This document shows, one piece after another, positions 2,837 through 31,575 of a stretch of DNA of 62,752 bases. Under the pieces are notes generated by a model. That model was not told where the DNA came from, made no database searches, and was given only the letters and a program-made list of their open reading frames with translations. Each line of letters opens with the position of its first letter. The stretch's first letter is position 1. Position numbers and translations under genes: made by a program. This DNA comes from Myxococcales bacterium (GTDB lineage Bacteria; Myxococcota_A; Bradymonadia; Bradymonadales; Bradymonadaceae): NCBI GenBank assembly GCA_007135085.1, contig SLJM01000036.1, positions 1-62,752 on the forward strand, in the 5' to 3' direction.

Positions 2837-4846
2837 ATGGGCTGGATCTCACGCCTCGCCATTTCCTGCACAACCATCGCCGCCGGTGCGGCCTTGCTGA
2901 CCGTGACCAGCGGCTGCAACGAACACCGCGTCTCCTTCGCCACCGCCTCGGGCGCCGTGGAGCACCTGGAAAAGCGCAATTTGAGCGGTGGAGAGAAGAT
3001 CGATCTCCTATGGGTGATCGATAACTCCGGCTCGATGTGCCGCTCTCAGGAAGTGCTGCGAAACGGCATCGAAGAATTCGTTCGCATTCTCGGGGAGGTC
3101 AATCTGGACTTCCAGATCGGGATCACCACCACCCATATGGTGGACTGCGAAGGGGTGGATACCGAGACCAATCCCTGGCACCCCTGTGCACTGGAGCCGG
3201 TGGCTCTGGCGGGTCATCTGCAATCCACCCCCCAGCCGGTGCCCGGTTTTGACGAGGCCTGCTATCACCCGGTCGACGAAAACGGAATGCCGATTCCGGG
3301 TCAATACGATCCGGTCATCGAAAATGTTCAGGTCGCCGTCAACTGCACGGAAAACCCCGATGATTATCAGCATCTATTGAACTTCAATGCCCAGTGGGAG
3401 GAGAATTTCCGCTGCGCCGTGGACCGGACCATCGACGGCGACGATTGCACGGGGGCCCCCGATCTGGAGGATCTCTTCCCCAATCCGGCAGACTACCGAG
3501 ACATCCCGGTCGTCCTGCGGGCCTCAGATTACGACACCATCGAAGAATTTGCGGAAGACTTCCGCTGCGCCAGCCTTGTCGGCACCCGGGGCTACGGCTA
3601 CGAGATGGGCCTTCTGGCGGCGGTCACCGCCGTGTCTGAGGATCTGATCGGCGACCAGCCCTATGAAGAAGGAGACGAAGTCGATCTCGAGGCCCATCCC
3701 AACGCCGGCTTCATCCGCAAAGACGCCATGACGGGCCTGATCTTCGTGGGCGACGAAAACGACTGCAGCCACGACGGCACCCTCGATACGGGCACTCAAT
3801 GCGGGGTCAATAACTGCACGATTCAAGAGGAACTGGGCGAAGAAGGGGCTCTTCTTTCAATCGACGAGCTCTACGATATGTTCATCGAAAACCTCGCCGA
3901 CGCCCGCGGCACCGACGCGGCCACCCTCAAGGAAAATAACAGCACCATCTTGCCCGCCTCCTTCCACGCCCGGTATCGCAAGGCCAGCAATGTTCCCGAG
4001 GCTTGCCCCACCGGGGGCTGGGATGTCCCCCCCTCCTGCGCCTCGGAGATGGGCTTCGGTTGGTCGGGCCACCGCTTCGACTATTTTCTCGACAAATTCG
4101 ACACCCACTTCCCGTCCCGCGACGGTGATGAACCGCTCGAGGGTCTGATCTGTACTCAGGAGCAATTCGAACGAGGGCTCGAGGAGTTGGCCGAGTTCTT
4201 CACCGCCGAAGCGGGCGCCTGTTATCAGGACGTCTATACGTGCAGCGGATTTAATGATCACTGCCCGTCCTCGCCATACGATCCGGACGCCCCGGGCCAC
4301 TGCCTTCCCGACCCGGGCCACCACAATAATGTACTCAACATCGTCCAGAGCGGCGGCGTTGACGGCCTGGACGCGGCGATCGCCGAGTTGGACGCCTTCT
4401 ACGAAGAAGACCTCAACAGCGCCGCCGATCTGGCGCCGCGCCACGTCGACGAATTGCTCCGTCGATTGCCCGGCGGGGCTCTGGCCACCATCCAAAGCGG
4501 CCTGGGCGACGCCAACTTCTATTGCGATACGGGCATCGAGGTTCGCATCGGCATCCCCGACGAAAGCGAGCTGGGAACTGACTTTTTGGAGGGCACCGGC
4601 TATTGCCTGGAGGGTACCATCGACAGCGATCCCGCCTTCCCCGACACCTGTGTTGTCGATCCCGATTTCTACTGGTGGTCCGAATGCGGAGGCACCAATA
4701 ACGGCCTCCAGCTCGCCTGGGTAGAAGCCCAGGAGTGGATCCACGCCATCGGCGGTCTCGATCTCTACACTCGATACGCCACGATCCCCGGCGCCGACGG
4801 CGCCGACGGCGGCGACGACAACGGAGATGATAACGGGGAAGAATGA
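2837..4846 (+). CDS. VWA-domain Cys-rich lipoprotein
   Basis: 669 aa. The N-terminus is a lipoprotein signal ending LLTVTSGC (lipidated Cys at about 26), followed at residues 56-70 by LLWVIDNSGSMCRS, the DxSxS metal-site (MIDAS) motif of von Willebrand factor A domains (D62, S64, S66). Many cysteines are spread through the protein, suggesting disulfides in the periplasm or at the surface. The C-terminus is a low-complexity acidic tail (DGADGGDDNGDDNGEE). An upstream in-frame ATG at 2777 would bury the signal peptide; 2837 follows CGAGGAAG and starts it cleanly. VWA lipoproteins of this size are frequent in Myxococcota; binding or adhesion is plausible but not shown. It has its own terminator and appears monocistronic. 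Confidence 0.82.
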   Translation: MGWISRLAISCTTIAAGAALLTVTSGCNEHRVSFATASGAVEHLEKRNLSGGEKIDLLWVIDNSGSMCRSQEVLRNGIEEFVRILGEVNLDFQIGITTTHMVDCEGVDTETNPWHPCALEPVALAGHLQSTPQPVPGFDEACYHPVDENGMPIPGQYDPVIENVQVAVNCTENPDDYQHLLNFNAQWEENFRCAVDRTIDGDDCTGAPDLEDLFPNPADYRDIPVVLRASDYDTIEEFAEDFRCASLVGTRGYGYEMGLLAAVTAVSEDLIGDQPYEEGDEVDLEAHPNAGFIRKDAMTGLIFVGDENDCSHDGTLDTGTQCGVNNCTIQEELGEEGALLSIDELYDMFIENLADARGTDAATLKENNSTILPASFHARYRKASNVPEACPTGGWDVPPSCASEMGFGWSGHRFDYFLDKFDTHFPSRDGDEPLEGLICTQEQFERGLEELAEFFTAEAGACYQDVYTCSGFNDHCPSSPYDPDAPGHCLPDPGHHNNVLNIVQSGGVDGLDAAIAELDAFYEEDLNSAADLAPRHVDELLRRLPGGALATIQSGLGDANFYCDTGIEVRIGIPDESELGTDFLEGTGYCLEGTIDSDPAFPDTCVVDPDFYWWSECGGTNNGLQLAWVEAQEWIHAIGGLDLYTRYATIPGADGADGGDDNGDDNGEE

Positions 4847-4867
4847 GCGATCCTTACCATTCGGTCA

Positions 4868-4897
4868 GCCGCCGATCTTCGGATCGGCGGCTTTTTT
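4868..4897 (+). terminator. Strong Rho-independent terminator
   Basis: 10-bp perfect stem GCCGCCGATC / GATCGGCGGC closed by a TTCG tetraloop and followed by TTTTTT. It ends the VWA lipoprotein transcript. Confidence 0.92.
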
Positions 4898-5077
4898 ATT
4901 GGGTTCCCCCTTGTTTTCCGAAAGTTTTTGACAAAGTTTGACACACCGGCCCTTGGCATACGCTTGAGTAGTCACTAACATCTTCTGTCACTGGGCTTTG
5001 GAAAACGATGGAATGGGGGGATGCAAATGTGGCATTCTAATAAAGTAGTTCGTTCAGAAGTAAGAGCGGAGAAACCA

Positions 5078-7267
5078 ATGTCGAGGAAAAGCTCTACGGG
5101 GAGCAGCCAGCACCTTCGTGCCCTGCGCGATGCACGGCGAAAGCTTCTCCGTGAGCAAAGCCCACAGCACTATTGCCCTCATTGCCAGTCGGTGACCTTC
5201 GCCAGCGAAGATCACTGTCTGGAATGCGCACAGGAGCGCCCGGCCCAGGGGTGGCCCGATCTGGAGACGGTCAATAACGCCTGGTTGGGAAAGATCCTCG
5301 ATGGCCGTTATCTCATCGCCTGTGCCCTGGGCCAGGGGACCTCCGGCGAGGTCTACCGCGCCGAATCTCTGTCCATCTCTCGTCAATTTGCCATCAAGAT
5401 CATCGCCACCGACAAGGGCCATACCCAGGCCGAACAAATCGTGGCCCGCCTCAACCGCGAGATCGAGGCACTGAGCCGGCTGCGAAACCCCCATATCGTA
5501 TCCTTCTACGAGATCTTCGAGCTCGGTGAAAACCACGTGGCCGCCGTCATGGACCTCATCGACGGCGACACCTTGGAGGGCCTGGTCCTGGACAATGAGG
5601 GGCTGTCCATCCCCCGGGCCTGTTCCATCTTGCGCCAGGTGGCCAACGGCATCTACGAAGCTCATCAGGCGGGCATGATCCACCGCGATCTAAAGCCGGA
5701 AAACCTGATGGTCGAGCGCCTGCCCGCCGGCGACGACTTCGCTCATATTCTCGATTTCGGGATCGTGCGGCTCACCGACGACGTCTCCGTCAAATTGACC
5801 CACGGCTTCATCGGCACTCCCCTTTATGCCAGCCCCGAGCAGGCGATGGCCAAAGCCATCGATCACCGCAGCGATATCTACAGCCTGGGAGCGATCCTCT
5901 ATTTTATGCTCACCGGCCGGCCTCCCTTTGTGTCCAATAACGTCTACGAAGTACTGCGCATGCACGTGCGCCAGAACCCGCCCACATTGGCCGAGGGGGC
6001 GCCGGGACGCAGTTTTCCAAAGGCTCTGGAGAACTTGACGGCCACCATGCTGGCCAAACAGGCCGACGATCGTCCCGCCGACTTATCGGCGGTCATCGAA
6101 GAGCTCGACCGCTTTAGCCGGGCCCAGCTCTCAGAGGCCCATCAAAGCGAGATCAGCGACGCCTCGACCTCGTGGAATAAAGAGAAAACCACCGCCACCG
6201 TACAGACGCCGATCTCGGGGGTCGCCAAAGTGCCCCCGGGACTGCGCGAACCCCAGAGCGATGGCACCGAGGTCGACGAAGAAGACAATGCCTTTATGCG
6301 TGACCGACACAACTCGTCGGCCACCCTTCAGGCCTACGGACAACAACGCCAGCCCGTCCACACCCCGGTGGGCTTTTCGCGCAACCCCACCCCGGCGCCG
6401 CGAAAAGACAAGCGCCTCGAGCCCCTGCCCGGCGAGATTCATTTCGGAGACGGCGGCGACGAGAGTTCGGCGGCCACCGCCGTGCCGTCGGCGACTTATA
6501 AGATTCAGTCACCTATCTCCAAAATCGAAGTGGTCACCCGCTCCGACGGAGGGTTCGCTCTTCGGGAACCCTCCCCGGGAGAGGTCCTATATTTCGGCCC
6601 CGACGCCACCTCACCGGTGCCGGTGGCTCTGGCCTCGCCGCAGACCGTATCTTCCATCGCCCTGGCCAAAGATCATCTCATCGCCGGCCACGACGACGGC
6701 AGGATCTCCAAAACCGATCTGAGCACGGGCCAGCAGGAGTCGCTCTATCAGGATATTCGCCGGGTGCCGATCTCGGCGGTGGCCACCCATCGTCAAAAAA
6801 ATTGTATCCTCGCCGGGTCCGAGTCCGGCCGGGTCTATCTCTACGATGGAACTCAGCGCCGATCGGCGGACTGGCGGCGGGTGCGAAACGGGGAAGCCGT
6901 CCAGTCCATCTCCCTCAATGAGTCGGCCGACATGGCTGCCATCGCCCGGCGGGATAACACCATGGAGATTCTGGCCCTGGCTAATCCCCGAGTGCCCAGC
7001 GGCACCTTCCGGGTCAAAGCGCCGATCCGATCGATGTCGATTTCTCCCGACGATTATTTGCTGGCCGCCGTGCTCGTCGATCGTACGATCGCTCTGTATC
7101 AACTACCCACGGGGCGACAGGTATTGTCTCTGGACGCCAATATGGTAGATGTATTGTCTGTCCATTTTTCCGATGATGCGCGACCGGTGGCGGTCTGTTC
7201 TATTGAGCAACAGATTCAGGTGCTCAAGTTTGAACAAATAAGCTCCCGTGCAGCATCGAGCAAGTAG
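5078..7267 (+). CDS. Zinc-ribbon Ser/Thr kinase with C-terminal beta-propeller
   Basis: 729 aa. Order: zinc ribbon (CPHC at 33-36, CLEC at 47-50); Hanks-type kinase about 70-345 with ILDGRYLIACALGQGTSGEVY glycine loop start, FAIKII, HRDLKPEN (D204), DFG (D226) and YASPEQ; Pro/Thr-rich linker; then from about 480 a WD40/PQQ-like propeller (HLIAGHDDGRISKTDL, CILAGSESGRVYLYDG). All catalytic residues are present, so it should phosphorylate Ser/Thr in the cytoplasm; there is no membrane segment. Chosen start has GGAG 6 bases upstream; an in-frame ATG at 5021 is possible. Same architecture as the gene at 53319-55286 and a longer paralogue of the next gene. Substrates unknown. Confidence 0.88.
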   Translation: MSRKSSTGSSQHLRALRDARRKLLREQSPQHYCPHCQSVTFASEDHCLECAQERPAQGWPDLETVNNAWLGKILDGRYLIACALGQGTSGEVYRAESLSISRQFAIKIIATDKGHTQAEQIVARLNREIEALSRLRNPHIVSFYEIFELGENHVAAVMDLIDGDTLEGLVLDNEGLSIPRACSILRQVANGIYEAHQAGMIHRDLKPENLMVERLPAGDDFAHILDFGIVRLTDDVSVKLTHGFIGTPLYASPEQAMAKAIDHRSDIYSLGAILYFMLTGRPPFVSNNVYEVLRMHVRQNPPTLAEGAPGRSFPKALENLTATMLAKQADDRPADLSAVIEELDRFSRAQLSEAHQSEISDASTSWNKEKTTATVQTPISGVAKVPPGLREPQSDGTEVDEEDNAFMRDRHNSSATLQAYGQQRQPVHTPVGFSRNPTPAPRKDKRLEPLPGEIHFGDGGDESSAATAVPSATYKIQSPISKIEVVTRSDGGFALREPSPGEVLYFGPDATSPVPVALASPQTVSSIALAKDHLIAGHDDGRISKTDLSTGQQESLYQDIRRVPISAVATHRQKNCILAGSESGRVYLYDGTQRRSADWRRVRNGEAVQSISLNESADMAAIARRDNTMEILALANPRVPSGTFRVKAPIRSMSISPDDYLLAAVLVDRTIALYQLPTGRQVLSLDANMVDVLSVHFSDDARPVAVCSIEQQIQVLKFEQISSRAASSK

Positions 7268-7386
7268 AACGCCATCGCTTCCCTTTGGGGGCGCCCTCCT
7301 GATTCGATAGGTGAGCGTCCATTGCAGTATCCCTGGGAGGGACTGTTCTTCGTCGACTAATACGACGACCACAGCGAGCCACACCT

Positions 7387-8709
7387 ATGATTGGACCGAC
7401 AAAACGCAACCGAAGCGCCCGACTTCGCGCCGCTCAGCAACAGCCGACCTGTTTCTGTCGGCGCTGTAGGGCGGCGGCCCACGCCGAAGAGCCGGCCTGC
7501 GTCTATTGTGGGGCTCCCGCTCCCGAAAAGGGGTGGCCGCCCCTTGCCGACCTGGGCGATCCCTGGCTGGGCCGCACCATCGACGGCCGCTACCGGGTAA
7601 CCCGTCGCATCGGCCGGGGCACCTTCGCCGACGTCTACCGCATCGACTCGGTGAGCATCGCCCGCCATTTTGCGATCAAGATCATCGACACCGATCGGGG
7701 CGACGCCGATCCGGAGGCCATCATCGCCCGCCTCGATCGGGAGGTCGACGCCCTGAGCCAATTGCGAAACCCCCATATCGTCTCTTTCTACGAGATCCTC
7801 GACCTGGGGGGGGGGCATATCGGGGTGATCATGGATCTCGTCGACGGGGTCACCCTCCAACAGCTGGTCAGCCAGGGCCAGCCGCTGAGCACTCACCGGG
7901 CCTATACCATCCTGCGCCAGGTGGCCAACGGGCTTCTGGAAGCTCATAAAAGACAGATGATCCATCGCGATCTCAAGCCGGACAATATCATGGTCGAGCG
8001 GCTGCCCGCCGGCGATGACTTCGCCCGCATCTTGGACTTCGGCGTGGTCAGCACCACCGGTTCCTCGACGGTGCGCCTGACCCATGGATTCGTGGGCACT
8101 CCACTTTACGCAAGCCCGGAGCAGATCCAAGATCTGCCCCTCGACTGGCGCAGCGATATCTACAGCCTGGGCGCCATCTTATTTTTCATGCTCACCGGCC
8201 ATCCTCCCTTTCCCTCCAACAATACCTACGACGTGCTTCGCATGCATCTGGAGAAGCCCCCGCCTCGGCTGGCGTCGGTGGTGCCCTGGGGCACTTTTCC
8301 TCCCTCCCTGGAGGCCCTGGTGGCGGCCATGCTCGCCAAGGACCGACAGGTGCGCCCTGCCGATCTATCCCTGGTCATCGCCGCCCTGGACCGCCTCACT
8401 CTGGAGGAGACATCCGAGGCCCACCTGGATAACCACTCCACCATCGATCGCAACCTTCGGCCCCTGGACCGCCATGGGCAGCGAATGTCTCACCCCACCA
8501 ACGAACACAGCCCGGAGCCAATCCGCCGTCACCGCGACACCCCCCTTTCGGGGGTCTTGAAATTGCCCTCTGACTTTGGCGACGACGGGCACAATCAGGC
8601 TGACTCTTCACCGCGAAAACGCTCCCAGACCCCTTTGTCGGGGATACTCAAGCGCCCTTCCAGGCGAAAAAACCCCACACCCAATACCTTCACAGAGCCC
8701 GTCGAATAG
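7387..8709 (+). CDS. Zinc-ribbon Ser/Thr kinase, short paralogue
   Basis: 440 aa. N-terminal zinc ribbon (CRRC 24-27, CVYC 38-41) then a complete kinase domain with TIDGRYRVTRRIGRGTFADVY, FAIKII, MIHRDLKPDN, LDFGVV and YASPEQ. The kinase half is very like that of the preceding gene (shared LRNPHIVSFYEI, NIMVERLPAGDDFA, SDIYSLGAI and MLTGHPPF), so the pair arose by tandem duplication. Unlike its neighbour it stops after a Pro/Ser/Arg-rich tail with a repeated TPLSGVLK/TPLSGILK motif, which also occurs upstream of the propeller in the neighbour (TPISGVAK); that motif may be a shared docking or phosphorylation site. A PP2C phosphatase lies 160 bases downstream, a natural counterpart. Confidence 0.88.
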   Translation: MIGPTKRNRSARLRAAQQQPTCFCRRCRAAAHAEEPACVYCGAPAPEKGWPPLADLGDPWLGRTIDGRYRVTRRIGRGTFADVYRIDSVSIARHFAIKIIDTDRGDADPEAIIARLDREVDALSQLRNPHIVSFYEILDLGGGHIGVIMDLVDGVTLQQLVSQGQPLSTHRAYTILRQVANGLLEAHKRQMIHRDLKPDNIMVERLPAGDDFARILDFGVVSTTGSSTVRLTHGFVGTPLYASPEQIQDLPLDWRSDIYSLGAILFFMLTGHPPFPSNNTYDVLRMHLEKPPPRLASVVPWGTFPPSLEALVAAMLAKDRQVRPADLSLVIAALDRLTLEETSEAHLDNHSTIDRNLRPLDRHGQRMSHPTNEHSPEPIRRHRDTPLSGVLKLPSDFGDDGHNQADSSPRKRSQTPLSGILKRPSRRKNPTPNTFTEPVE

Positions 8710-26384: not shown

Positions 26385-27953
26385 ATGGAAAATTATCAGA
26401 CCGAGACACCGACTCCGGAACATACGAAGCCCCCCCGTCACCAGGATCAGACCCTGCCTGAGAATCAGCGTCTCTGTTCGTTCAACCCCGTCGATCGATC
26501 GGTGGTGGGCGAAGTAGAGCTGACTCCGGCGTCTCAGAGTGACACCATCGTCGAGCAGGCGAGCGACGCTCAGCGCGCCTTTCAGCGCCGGCCGCTCGAC
26601 GAACGCATCAAGATCGGCCGACGCCTTGTCTCGCAGGTTCTGAAGTGGCGAACTGAATTGTTGGAGCTCATGGTCGACGAGACGGGCAAGAGCACTCTGG
26701 AAGCCCGCTGGGAGCTGTGGAAGACCTGCGATGAAGCAGGGGAATTGTTGTCACAGGCCAAAAAGAGGATCAGCGGCGATCGCACCCGCCAGTGGTGGCG
26801 CCCCCACCGGGTCATCGAATCCACCTGGCAGCCTCGAGGAGTGGTCCTTGTGGTGGCCTCGGCCTATGAACCCCTCCAGACCACGGTGGCCCCCGCGCTG
26901 GCCGCTCTGCTCGCCGGCAATGCGGTGATCGTCGTCGGCGATGAGCGGGCGCCGCTGACCGTCAAGTCCGTGACCAATATCGCCGCCGGCGTCACCGGCC
27001 AGGAGTCGTTGTGGACCGGCTGGGTCGGCGGCCGACGCCTGGTGGACTCTCTGGCCGACCGGGTGGACGCGGTGGTCTCCTACGGACCGCCCATGATGAC
27101 CCGCAGGCTGGCGCGGCGCCAGGGCGATCGCACGATCCCCGTCATCGGCCGCTGGCCCACTCAGAACGCCATGATCGTGCTCAACGACGCCGATCTGGAC
27201 CGGGCGGCCAGAGCGGCCGTCTTCGGCGCCTGCTCCGGCGCCGGCAGAAGCCGCCGGGCGATCCGGCGAATCTATGTCCAGGACTCGGTGGCCGATCTCT
27301 TCGTGGACTCCGTAGTCGAACAGATGGGCACCCTGCACCAGGGCAGCGACGGCGACGGCGATAATCGAAAGCGCCAGATCGGCCCCCTCTTCGAACCGCG
27401 CGATCTGGAGCGCCTGGAGAGCCTGGTCGACGACGCCTGCCGCAGCGGCGCTCGGCTCATCGCCGGAGGAAGGCCGCGTCCCCGCTGTCGAGGCACTTAT
27501 TTCGAGCCTACCGTGCTCACCGGCGTCGACGAATCGATGCGCCTGTGGCGCGAGCCCGCCCCGGGCCCGGTGGTGGCCATCAGCTCCGTGCAGGCCCCGG
27601 CCGACGCCGCCCGCAGGGTGCGCGATATCCCGGGCTACGGAACGGTGGCGATCTTTTCGGCCAACCAACAGGTGGCCCGCAACCTGGCAATACGGCTGGA
27701 GGCCCCGGTGGTGGGGATCAATGAAGTCGTCGACGACCTGCGCGCCGCCTCTCCCACCGTGCAGGGCACCTTCGACGGGCCCATCGATCCGACCGGCGCC
27801 GATCGGCTCGAGGCCCTGTCCCGAAGGGTCGTCACCGTGGAGCGCCGCCTTTTGGGCCTGCCCAAAGTCCTGGAGACACGCCACGCCGGCCGCACCGAAA
27901 AAGCCCTCGACGCAGCGATGAGCGTGCTGCGCTTCGCTCGCACGCTGGGGTGA
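26385..27953 (+). CDS. Aldehyde-dehydrogenase-fold protein lacking catalytic residues
   Basis: 522 aa with the ALDH architecture: FNPVDRSVVGEV, WQPRGVVLVVASAYEPLQTTVAPALAAL region, SYGPPMMTRR, DADLDRAARAAVFGA and GTYFEPTVLTGV. Where ALDHs have the ELGGK general base, this has IGRWPTQ (Arg for Glu by my alignment from the DADLD anchor). Where they have GQxC, it has GRSR (287-290), placing Arg290 at the catalytic Cys; Cys283 is nearby but seven residues off. It therefore looks like a non-catalytic ALDH. A Lys/Arg-rich C-terminus (SVLRFARTLG) is encoded by the first unit of a hairpin repeat array. Neighbouring genes give no pathway. Confidence 0.78.
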   Translation: MENYQTETPTPEHTKPPRHQDQTLPENQRLCSFNPVDRSVVGEVELTPASQSDTIVEQASDAQRAFQRRPLDERIKIGRRLVSQVLKWRTELLELMVDETGKSTLEARWELWKTCDEAGELLSQAKKRISGDRTRQWWRPHRVIESTWQPRGVVLVVASAYEPLQTTVAPALAALLAGNAVIVVGDERAPLTVKSVTNIAAGVTGQESLWTGWVGGRRLVDSLADRVDAVVSYGPPMMTRRLARRQGDRTIPVIGRWPTQNAMIVLNDADLDRAARAAVFGACSGAGRSRRAIRRIYVQDSVADLFVDSVVEQMGTLHQGSDGDGDNRKRQIGPLFEPRDLERLESLVDDACRSGARLIAGGRPRPRCRGTYFEPTVLTGVDESMRLWREPAPGPVVAISSVQAPADAARRVRDIPGYGTVAIFSANQQVARNLAIRLEAPVVGINEVVDDLRAASPTVQGTFDGPIDPTGADRLEALSRRVVTVERRLLGLPKVLETRHAGRTEKALDAAMSVLRFARTLG

Positions 27954-28387: not shown

Positions 28388-30946
28388 ATGGAAGATAAGC
28401 TGCAATTGGCCAAGGAACTCTTCCGCAAGATCGAGGAGACCGAAGGTGAGGAGCGATATCGCAGTTTTCGCGACCAGCTCTATGGATTGGGATCTGAAAT
28501 TGCACCGGTCTTGCTGGAAAACTTAACCCACCGCAGTTATCTGCGCCGCATGGCAGCGGCCACCAACCTGGGCCGCCTGGGTTATAAGGACGCCGTCGGC
28601 GATCTGGTGGAGCTGCTCAACGATCCCCAGGCCGGGGTGCGGGAGATGGCCCTGTTCTCCCTGGGGATCCTCGGCGATCCGTCGGTGACCGAGCCCGTCT
28701 TACAGGCTCTTCACGACTACGATGCCGACGTGCGCTATCGAGCGCTGGTGGCCCTGGGCGACCTTAGTTATCCCCACCTGGAAGAAGTACTGATTCGCTG
28801 TATGGACGACGAATCCTACGGGGTTCGTGAGCAGGCGCTGTCCCAGCTTCGCGCCGTGGGCACCCCGCGGTGCGTGCCTGTGGTGCTCAAGGCGCTGCTC
28901 GAGCGCGAGCTCGATATGCAGCGAAGCGCCGAGGAGCTATTGGACCGCCTGGTGCCGCGGCTGACCCGCGAGCATTATCGCAAGCTGCCCCAGCAATTGA
29001 GCCCCCGAGAACGGCGGCTGATCCTCAACTATATGGAGGCCCGCAAACTCCAGGAGGTCTACGGCACCCTCTGGAAGCACCTCCAATTGACCTCCCCGGC
29101 GGTCAAAGAAGAGCGGGGACTCGATAAATACGGGCGCATCCTCAACAGCGACGACGAACGCGAATTTCTGGTCCGCGCCTACGGCCGCGACGACACGGTG
29201 GACACCCTGGTCGACCATTTTTGCGATCAGGGCTCGTCGCGCAGCATCTTGCTCGTCGGCGAAGCCGGCTCGGGCAAGACGGCCATCGTCCACGAGATGG
29301 TCCACCGCCTCCATGAGGTCGGCGAAGATGGTGAAGAGTGGACAGTCCTGGAGACCAATACGAGCGAGCTCATTAGCGGCACCCGCTACCTCGGCGATTG
29401 GGAGACCAAGCTCAAGGAGATGACCGAGGCCATTCTGGAGCACGATCGGGTCATCATCTACGTGACCAACCCCAACGATCTCCTCGGCGCCGGCGCCCAC
29501 TCCAAGAGCGACGAGAATTTTGCCGATTTCTTCAAGCCCTATCTGCAGCGCGGTCAACTTCGGATGATCGCCGAATGCACCGAAGAGGACTTGAAAAACG
29601 GCCTGACCAGCGATCCCGGCTTCTTACGTCTCTTTCGCCAGGTCAAAGTCCAGCCCATGGACGAGGCGCAGACCCTGGAGGTCTTGAGCCGGCGGATCAT
29701 GGATATCGACGTCGACGACGATCGGGTCGTGCGCGCCGAGCCGGGGTGTCTGGAACAGATCCTCGATTTTTCGGAGAGTTTTTATACTCGCAGCCATCCC
29801 CCGGGGAGGGCCTGCGATCTGATGGACGCCCTGGTGGACTATACGGAGCGCCACGACGACGGAGAGGGTGAATTCGTCCTCTCTGTAGAAAATATCCCGC
29901 CCTGCCTGGCAGAAGTGACGGGGATGAGCCTCGATCTGCTCGACGATACGGTGCCCCTCGATCTGAATGAGACTCGCCAGTGGTTCGTGGAGCGCCTCAT
30001 CGATCAGGAGCACGCCGTGGAGGCCATCGTCGACCGGCTGGCCCTGGTCAAGACGGGGATGGGCGATCCCGACAAGCCTCTGGGGGTCTTCTTTTTGGTC
30101 GGTCCTACGGGCGTGGGCAAGACCTATTTTACCAAGCTCATCGCCGAGCGGCTCTTTGGCTCCCAGAAGCGCATGGTCCGCTTCGACCTGAGTGAATATC
30201 AGGGCCGCTACGCCGTGGAAAAGCTCATCGGATCGCCACATGACAAAGACCGCGAGGGCCTTCTCACCGAGGAGATCCGAAACCAGCCCTTCTCGGTGCT
30301 TCTCTTCGACGAATTCGAAAAGGCCGACCCGGAGATCTTCAATCTCTTCTTGCAGATCCTCGACGAGGGGCGGCTGACCGACGCCCGCGGGCGGACCACC
30401 GATTTTCGCCAGACCCTGATCTTTTTGACGAGCAACCTGGGGGCCTCGAAGATGAGCATCCAGCCCCTGGGCTTCGGCGCCGGCGCCGAGCAGGTGGGCG
30501 GCCAGATCCAGAAGAAGCTCGACGAATTTTTCGCCCCTGAATTTCTAAATCGCCTCGACGATACGCTGATCTTCAACCCCCTGTCTCGCTCGGCCATGGA
30601 GCGCCTGGTCGACATCGAGTTGGAGCGGGCTTTCGAGCGCCGGGGCTTTCGCCGCCGAAACCTCGAGGTCCAGGTCGACAAGCCAGTGCGCCACTGGCTC
30701 GAGGAGCAGGGCTTTAGCCAGCGTTTCGGCGCTCGAAAGCTAAAGCGGACGATTGAAAAATACGTCCTCACCGCGATCAGCCGCCAGATGTTGGCCGAGC
30801 CGGGCCCCCACGACGGAAAGCTTATCGAGGTCACCGTCGACGAAGGCGAGATCCTGGTCCAGCTCAAAGAACGGGCTACCGAATCCTCATCGGCCCCCAG
30901 TCTTCCGAGAGAACCACGAAGCCCGAGCCGCCTCGAGTCGCAATGA
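28388..30946 (+). CDS. HEAT-repeat Clp/Hsp100-type double AAA+ ATPase
   Basis: 852 aa. Residues 1-200 are HEAT/PBS-lyase-like repeats (AAATNLGRLGYKDAVGDLVELL, DVRYRALVALGDLSYPHLEEVL) where Clp proteins normally have the Clp_N domain. First AAA+ has Walker A GEAGSGKT (291-298) but Walker B reads VIIYVTNPND (355-364), with Thr-Asn instead of Asp-Glu, so hydrolysis there is doubtful. Second AAA+ has Walker A GPTGVGKT (572-579), Walker B LLFDEFEKA (D641, E642) and Clp C-terminal GFSQRFGARKLKR. No ClpB middle coiled coil. PLGFGAG at 693-699 sits where ClpA/ClpC carry the IGF/LGF loop that docks on ClpP. Likely an unfoldase with HEAT-based substrate choice. Overlaps rsmG by 4 bases. Confidence 0.85.
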   Translation: MEDKLQLAKELFRKIEETEGEERYRSFRDQLYGLGSEIAPVLLENLTHRSYLRRMAAATNLGRLGYKDAVGDLVELLNDPQAGVREMALFSLGILGDPSVTEPVLQALHDYDADVRYRALVALGDLSYPHLEEVLIRCMDDESYGVREQALSQLRAVGTPRCVPVVLKALLERELDMQRSAEELLDRLVPRLTREHYRKLPQQLSPRERRLILNYMEARKLQEVYGTLWKHLQLTSPAVKEERGLDKYGRILNSDDEREFLVRAYGRDDTVDTLVDHFCDQGSSRSILLVGEAGSGKTAIVHEMVHRLHEVGEDGEEWTVLETNTSELISGTRYLGDWETKLKEMTEAILEHDRVIIYVTNPNDLLGAGAHSKSDENFADFFKPYLQRGQLRMIAECTEEDLKNGLTSDPGFLRLFRQVKVQPMDEAQTLEVLSRRIMDIDVDDDRVVRAEPGCLEQILDFSESFYTRSHPPGRACDLMDALVDYTERHDDGEGEFVLSVENIPPCLAEVTGMSLDLLDDTVPLDLNETRQWFVERLIDQEHAVEAIVDRLALVKTGMGDPDKPLGVFFLVGPTGVGKTYFTKLIAERLFGSQKRMVRFDLSEYQGRYAVEKLIGSPHDKDREGLLTEEIRNQPFSVLLFDEFEKADPEIFNLFLQILDEGRLTDARGRTTDFRQTLIFLTSNLGASKMSIQPLGFGAGAEQVGGQIQKKLDEFFAPEFLNRLDDTLIFNPLSRSAMERLVDIELERAFERRGFRRRNLEVQVDKPVRHWLEEQGFSQRFGARKLKRTIEKYVLTAISRQMLAEPGPHDGKLIEVTVDEGEILVQLKERATESSSAPSLPREPRSPSRLESQ

Positions 30947-31575
30947 GCCCCCACACCTCGCTGGACCGCATCGCCGCCTTCTGCGCCGACGCCGACCTTC
31001 CCTGGGACGACGACCGCGCCGAGAAGATGGCCCACTATCTCGATCTGCTCATGCAGTTCAATCAGGCCATGAACCTCATCGGTCCCCTGACTAGCGACGA
31101 GGTGGTGGACCAACTTTTGCTCGACAGCCTGGTCGCCACGGCGGCCCGCAAGCCACAGGGTCCGATCCTGGACGTGGGCTGCGGCGCCGGTCTACCGGGC
31201 ATCCCCATCAAAATCGCCTTCCCCGACTGCCCCTTGAGCCTGGTCGAACCACGCCGCAAGCGCTCGACCTTCTTGAAGATCGCCGCCCACCGCCTGGAGC
31301 TGACCGACGTCGACGTCTTCCGCAGCCGCATCGAGGACTTCCACGCCAAGGACTTCGACACGGTCATCTCCAAGGCCTTCCAGCCCCCCACCACCTGGCT
31401 TGAGACGGCCCGTCCCTTCATCGCCGACGACGGCGCCCTCATCGTCATGGGCCGCGAATCGGACCGCCCCGATCTGCTCGACGCCGCCAGGCCCCTGGGC
31501 CTTAGCCTCGAGGGCTCGGCCCGCGGCGCCGGCGACGGTCCGGAACAACGCGTATGCTACGCGTTTGGGGCTTAA
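30943..31575 (+). CDS. rsmG: 16S rRNA (guanine-N7)-methyltransferase RsmG
   Basis: 210 aa, standard GidB/RsmG length. Motifs: MQFNQAMNLIGPLT, QLLLDSLV, ILDVGCGAGLPGIPIKIAFP (SAM-binding loop) and LVEPRRKRSTFLK. The enzyme methylates N7 of G527 in 16S rRNA using SAM. Its ATG overlaps the TGA of the HEAT-Clp gene (ATGA), so the two are translationally coupled. In many bacteria rsmG lies near parA/parB and mnmG; that context is absent here. Confidence 0.94.
   Translation: MSPHTSLDRIAAFCADADLPWDDDRAEKMAHYLDLLMQFNQAMNLIGPLTSDEVVDQLLLDSLVATAARKPQGPILDVGCGAGLPGIPIKIAFPDCPLSLVEPRRKRSTFLKIAAHRLELTDVDVFRSRIEDFHAKDFDTVISKAFQPPTTWLETARPFIADDGALIVMGRESDRPDLLDAARPLGLSLEGSARGAGDGPEQRVCYAFGA

Follow-up and report, generated by a model that had tools for sequence, protein, structure and literature searches.

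Class I Hsp100/Clp ATPases are recognised by two AAA+ modules, of which the second is of the AAA_2 type and is followed by a ClpB_D2-small domain. In ClpA the second ring (D2) is the principal motor and the first ring (D1) is auxiliary, and the pore-1 aromatic residue has been described as present in all AAA+ unfoldases (Kim et al., PMC9663308). ClpC of Staphylococcus and Mycobacterium (PDB 6em8 and 9gi1) docks on ClpP via an LGF-type loop. The presence of an LGF loop serves as a marker of partnership with ClpP (PMC10149685). ClpI of Actinomycetota is a separate double-ring class delimited by sequence analysis, in which the N-domain is variable, some members carry LGF, a short M-domain is present and the ATPase modules and unfolding motifs are intact (PMC10149685). 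In the ClpB/Hsp104 group, ClpB combines an active D1 and a long M-domain with the absence of an LGF loop.

The gene described here, termed HEAT-Clp, lies in contig SLJM01000036.1 of a Myxococcales bacterium placed by GTDB in the order Bradymonadales; the stretch from position 1 to 62,752 of that contig is referred to as the window. The reading frame runs on the forward strand from the ATG at 28388 to the stop codon at 30946, and the coordinates and residue numbers of the initial annotation proved exact on re-reading. Its layout is as follows.

28388..30946 (+): HEAT-Clp ATPase reading frame, 852 aa, with orthologues in 25 of the 26 genomes of the order
28388..29083 (+): HEAT solenoid at the N-terminus, aa 1-232, replacing the Clp N-domain (Pfam HEAT_2 and HEAT_PBS, AlphaFold2 helices, PDB sequence matches to alphaRep and HEAT proteins)
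29180..29947 (+): D1 AAA+ module, aa 265-520, of ClpA-like length and without an M-domain (Pfam, PDB, alignment)
29960..30862 (+): D2 AAA+ module with ClpB_D2-small, aa 525-825 (AAA_2 154.8 bits, ClpB_D2-small 52.2 bits)
30863..30943 (+): disordered tail, aa 826-852, with an LPREPRxPSR-like motif in the nearer orthologues (AlphaFold2, alignment)

With two AAA+ modules and an AAA_2-type second module that carries ClpB_D2-small, the product belongs by sequence to the Clp-type (Hsp100) two-ring ATPases, as a form specific to Bradymonadales. The proposal that HEAT repeats replace the Clp N-domain holds: HEAT_2 scores 80.5 bits (cut-off 27.7) and HEAT_PBS 53.1 bits on the N-terminal part, no Clp N-domain match appears among the Pfam families listed, and the AlphaFold2 model built from 21 family sequences (mean pLDDT 82.8) folds residues 1-232 as a helical solenoid of 14 helices across 2-218 and one at 226-232, mostly at pLDDT 84-97. 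By sequence, ClpC is the best match in the PDB, and ClpC-ClpP complexes lead the fold matches. The best NCBIfam scores fall far below the family cut-offs, at 364.6 bits for the ClpA equivalog TIGR02639 (cut-off 993.15) and 362 bits for ClpB (cut-off 1232), and the genome has its own ClpA, located near ClpS on contig C2.

HEAT-Clp shares with E. coli ClpA (TIGR02639) two AAA+ modules that follow each other without an M-domain, the D1 pore-1 tyrosine, a docking loop at the same position (LGF against IGL) and the full D2 catalytic set; it differs in its HEAT solenoid, in TN instead of DE in the D1 Walker B and in the absence of the D2 GYVG. Unlike ClpC, it has neither an M-domain nor a Clp N-domain, and its D1 Walker B and D2 pore-1 are changed. 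From ClpI it is set apart by the loss of the D1 Walker B and the lack of an M-domain, and from ClpB by the features named above, although the D2 and small domain are homologous to those of ClpB and give a strong profile match. No curated family fits this combination. Searches of the open-access literature for HEAT-Clp, Bradymonadales Clp, PCRF-Clp and degenerate D1 returned nothing relevant, in line with the first impression that this combination was not a recognised one.

The D1 ring has lost its Walker B acids and has kept its ATP-binding and grip residues.

29258..29281 (+): D1 Walker A GEAGSGKT, aa 291-298, intact, K297 in 21 of 21 sequences
29384..29392 (+): D1 pore-1 loop RYL, aa 333-335 (ClpA KYR 258-260), aromatic Y334 retained in 21 of 21
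29450..29470 (+): D1 Walker B strand VIIYVTN, aa 355-361, with T360-N361 for ClpA D285-E286 (alignment)
29627..29629 (+): D1 R414, equivalent to the ClpA arginine finger R339, retained in 21 of 21, with L415 in place of R340

The substitution of TN for the Walker B DE pair, on which the initial annotation had built its suggestion of a possibly silent ring, is borne out by a gap-free alignment of VIIYVTN-PNDLLGAG with SILFIDE-IHTIIGAG of E. coli ClpA, in which D285 corresponds to T360 and E286 to N361. The position of the catalytic glutamate is asparagine in all 21 aligned sequences; among the 19 orthologues N361 is found in every one and T360 in 17, the other two having lysine. P362, a GAGAHSKS stretch, Y334, R414 and G695-F696 are likewise fixed across these 19. 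A misaligned Walker B was considered and rejected, since the alignment is ungapped as far as GAG and the sole other nearby D-E pair, D375-E376, sits in the pore-2 loop. D364 is an unlikely compensating acid, as it stands three residues beyond the catalytic position and is not retained in the wider clade described below. Judged from T360-N361, D1 is very probably hydrolytically silent. Because Walker A and one arginine finger are kept while Walker B is lost, D1 may still bind ATP and serve as a static or allosterically driven ring.

The D2 ring has a complete catalytic set and an altered pore loop, a feature that had been overlooked in the initial annotation.

30101..30124 (+): D2 Walker A GPTGVGKT, aa 572-579, intact and invariant
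30230..30259 (+): D2 pore-1 region GSPHDKDREG, aa 615-624, with three residues fewer than in ClpA, without GYVG and with H618 fixed in orthologues (alignment)
30296..30313 (+): D2 Walker B VLLFDE, aa 637-642, intact, D641 and E642 in 21 of 21
30551..30553 (+): D2 arginine finger R722, in 21 of 21

K578, D641, E642, N683, R722 and R783, which together cover Walker A and B, sensor 1, the arginine finger and sensor 2, are each present in 21 of 21 sequences, and all D2 catalytic residues of E. coli ClpA align with those of HEAT-Clp. The aromatic GYVG motif of the ClpA and ClpC D2 pore-1 loop (Y540 in ClpA), which in ClpA is the chief element for gripping substrate, is missing from every orthologue; SPHDKDREG, with no aromatic residue, takes its place in HEAT-Clp and is nearly invariant among orthologues, and S616, P617, H618, D621 and R622 are each found in 19 of 19 of them. 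The channel thus retains the D1 grip (Y334) and has lost the D2 tyrosine, whereas for the hydrolytic residues it is D1 that has lost them and D2 that keeps them. The two rings therefore look re-specialised. Since D2, the ring left to pull, has no pore-1 aromatic, the ordinary threading mechanism cannot be assumed.

The third distinctive element is the candidate ClpP-docking loop.

30467..30475 (+): LGF tripeptide, aa 694-696, in the ClpP-docking (IGF/IGL) loop, aligned to ClpA IGL 617-619, GF in 21 of 21, loop disordered

The tripeptide follows sensor 1, after the strand of that motif (677-682) and ahead of the helix at 700-714, and aligns with I617-G618-L619 of ClpA and with VGF of the ClpA of the same genome. 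That LGF occupies the docking-loop position, as the initial annotation had noted, is therefore upheld, and neither burial nor misplacement of the motif is indicated: the loop has pLDDT below 50 in the AlphaFold2 model, as expected of a flexible, exposed loop. G695-F696 is found in 21 of 21 sequences, and at the neighbouring positions 698-704 the top-residue frequency is merely 0.16-0.37; two residues fixed within a fast-changing loop are not a product of chance, and the motif is under selection. In the alignment GF is absent from this position in the ClpB paralogues of the same genome.

The genome encodes two full-length ClpP proteins (on C131 and C181), one of them beside trigger-factor-like and ClpX-like reading frames. 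In the window's GTDB family, each of the 12 genomes with completeness of at least 90% has two ClpPs; in the class outside the order, 16 of the 17 genomes at the same completeness have a single one. In the order's second family, where HEAT-Clp is present too, one of five genomes shows two ClpPs and the other four show just one. The ClpP duplication is a single phylogenetic event.

HEAT-Clp is a conserved gene at the level of the order, rather than the one-off as which it was initially treated. A scan of genome contigs found 19 further loci at 54-85% identity. Among 284 genomes of the phylum the gene is present in 25, all of the window's order (25 of its 26 genomes): one GTDB family has it in 20 of 21 genomes and another in all 5. 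Among the named matches is the cultured Lujinxingia vulgaris, assigned to Bradymonadales by NCBI. The sole genome of the window's family in which it was not detected (G078) is 87% complete, so that absence is uncertain, and it carries a tandem pair of other Clp-like relatives (L122:1307-4576(-) and 4561-7548(-)). The orthologue in G008 is a single intact frame of 919 aa with an insertion in the D1-D2 linker. Against ten orthologues dN/dS is 0.06-0.22 for the HEAT region, 0.10-0.24 for D1 and 0.09-0.28 for D2, mostly about 0.1-0.2 with D1 not relaxed, although these values are rough as dS is near or past saturation in many pairs. A pseudogene or assembly error is contradicted by the presence in 25 of 26 genomes and by these ratios. 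The neighbourhood is also conserved.

26385..27953 (+): aldehyde-dehydrogenase-like reading frame, upstream, often retained (synteny; named from sequence reading)
30943..31575 (+): RsmG-like methyltransferase reading frame overlapping the stop codon (synteny; named from sequence reading)

The RsmG-like frame is directly downstream in most genomes of the window's family whose flanks were read, and the aldehyde-dehydrogenase-like frame upstream in many. A defence system was considered and set aside, as PADLOC matches only AAA or HEAT stretches and the gene is order-wide with stable neighbours.

HEAT-Clp is one branch of a wider clade common to which are the losses of the D1 glutamate and the D2 GYVG. 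In a tree of the D1-D2 core, the window's family is sister (support 100) to a second HEAT-Clp type with a C-terminal extension; next out are L111 and tandem Clp-like genes of Planctomycetota, Verrucomicrobiota and Acidobacteriota. Ultrafast bootstrap support is 97 for HEAT-Clp with this paralogue, L111 and the tandem genes, and 86 for the whole group, which is separate from ClpA and ClpB. The members without the D1 glutamate and the D2 GYVG are thus monophyletic, with support of just 86; L118-L128 were placed by motifs and BLAST matches, outside the tree. At the D1 Walker B catalytic position clade members carry N, D, Q, S, P, G, A or R and none has glutamate; GYVG is found in no member, and the docking-loop GF in nearly all, two tandem proteins having GL or GV instead. 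No NCBIfam model covers the clade, whose best scores are about 290-410 bits against ClpA and ClpB cut-offs of 993-1232.

The second HEAT-Clp type belongs to the order's other GTDB family (L080:5793-8804(-), L081:5737-8760(-) and L094:161-3157(-)). It is 38% identical and likewise carries TN in D1; close to the D2 pore-1 site it has W or Y, and its C-terminal extension holds a weak remnant that resembles RF2 (L081, E 7e-4). The tandem ATPases (L028-L037) are usually of three types in a row, of about 1100, 1100 and 760 aa, and all of them lack the D1 catalytic glutamate and the D2 GYVG. Their loci have no conserved non-Clp neighbour, the other recurrent reading frames being reverse or shifted-frame shadows. 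The opposite loss is seen in a 977-aa Clp-like paralogue of the window's genome (L006:1390-4320(-)), which retains DE in D1 and in which the D2 Walker B reads LLEDFDRA and the D2 Walker A GPPGVGKA.

Several clade members end in a release-factor domain (PCRF, PF03462; E 3e-16, 5e-9 and 3e-8). Two-ring proteins with a full-length RF2-like domain are encoded at the following loci.

L111:4317-7913(-): Clp-RF2-like fusion
L112:632-3400(+): Clp-RF2-like fusion
L113:935-3745(-): Clp-RF2-like fusion
L118:3400-8109(-): Clp-RF2-like fusion
L121:4282-7149(+): Clp-RF2-like fusion
L127:2522-5224(-): Clp-RF2-like fusion

L111 is matched by TIGR00020, the RF2 model, with E 2e-31 and across positions 3-352 of 353, and a profile built from six tails scores 103 bits on E. 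coli RF2, the alignment covering residues 25-354 of the translated stretch. For the L111 tail, a fold search with the predicted structure ranks RF2 structures first (E 3e-16), at TM 0.4-0.6 and pLDDT 70 with the domain arrangement uncertain. GGQ is not conserved in these domains, where it is degenerate. Additional PCRF matches lie within reading frames of 900-1570 aa in 12 genomes of the class, and all of these frames are Clp-like ATPases. These fusions have no curated model and no account in the open-access literature searched, and the release-factor-fused family is apparently unreported. A ClpP-like domain lies within reading frames of 509-588 aa in two genomes (G261:C96:23559-24089 and G161:C437:1962-2486), each of which has two Clp-RF2-like proteins. 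As far as they are on the tree, the tandem genes and the fusions belong to the same clade as HEAT-Clp and share both losses; they differ from it in having no clear HEAT repeats, other N-domains and C-terminal extensions, RF2-like in the fusions, whereas the HEAT-Clp of the window has no release-factor domain.

We put at about an even chance the reading that HEAT-Clp is a ClpP-docking two-ring ATPase in which hydrolysis is left to D2 alone, D1 binds ATP and grips, and the HEAT solenoid acts as a client or adaptor surface. The layout of the domains, the identity and conservation of the residues, purifying selection and the presence of clpP genes are observed; assembly as a hexamer, ATP hydrolysis, nucleotide binding by D1 in the absence of cleavage, docking on ClpP, the HEAT surface, threading and the proteolytic or unfolding activity proposed initially are inferred. 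The LGF loops would dock the ATPase on ClpP, the HEAT solenoid would pick a restricted client set, and clients would be remodelled or fed to ClpP. D1, binding ATP with no normal hydrolysis, would hold the hexamer together and grip substrate by Y334, and the stroke of D2 would be passed on in place of the standard pore-1 tyrosine, perhaps via H618, K620 and R622 or via D1. Supporting this reading are the invariant D2 catalytic residues, K297 and R414, the asparagine at the D1 catalytic position, the fixed G695-F696, the Clp-type profile and fold, the low dN/dS in all three regions, the two ClpPs of the genome and of its family, and the stable neighbourhood. Against it stand the single origin of the ClpP duplication, seen in one of five genomes of the second family, and the location of the gene away from clpP. 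More tentatively, and rather doubtful as a whole, the protein may represent an unrecognised major clade in which the roles of the rings are inverted relative to ClpA and coupling to ClpP is kept, and in which the release-factor module of other branches ties Clp-type unfolding to the ribosome.

GF loops can persist for a partner other than ClpP, which also counts against the leading reading. HEAT-Clp could be a ClpP-independent remodelling chaperone or assembly factor whose loop serves such a partner, which we consider unlikely. The gene does not adjoin clpP, and the paralogues L003 and L006, which are of other types, also have GF loops in this genome, so that GF alone is no proof; however, the two ClpB-like paralogues have none, as in ClpP-independent members, and the LGF loop is a used marker of ClpP partnership (PMC10149685). 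Also unlikely in our estimate is that HEAT-Clp regulates ClpP rather than unfolding proteins, with LGF docking opening or capping ClpP so that only unfolded or peptide-like clients held by HEAT are admitted, and D2 hydrolysis timing the association. The loop is conserved, and with no D2 pore-1 aromatic and no D1 Walker B the pulling force should be weak; nonetheless, Y334 in 21 of 21 sequences and a nearly invariant SPHDKDREG suggest that the channel still works.

A descent of HEAT-Clp from a ribosome-linked quality-control lineage, its ancestral release-factor module lost and its HEAT repeats now recruiting ribosome-related clients, would accommodate the full RF2-like C-terminal domain of relatives outside the order, the weak remnant in the sister paralogue L081 (E 7e-4) and a downstream neighbour that looks like a 16S rRNA methyltransferase gene. 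Yet HEAT-Clp itself lacks a domain of this kind, the release-factor-like domains do not conserve GGQ and the neighbour evidence is weak; we hold this to be very unlikely. Decay of a functionless ClpA/ClpC duplicate, to which the loss of canonical motifs in both rings might be attributed, is extremely improbable given retention in 25 of 26 genomes, dN/dS of about 0.1-0.2 throughout and conservation of the replacement motifs.

HEAT-Clp offers a natural Clp under selection in which one ring is apparently non-hydrolysing and the other is without the tyrosine, so that the division of labour between rings could be tested without recourse to point mutants. With the HEAT domain, a ClpP system would have a new surface for choosing clients. 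Furthermore, the wider clade with its release-factor fusions, not described in the open-access literature searched, would link Clp-type unfolding to translation termination.
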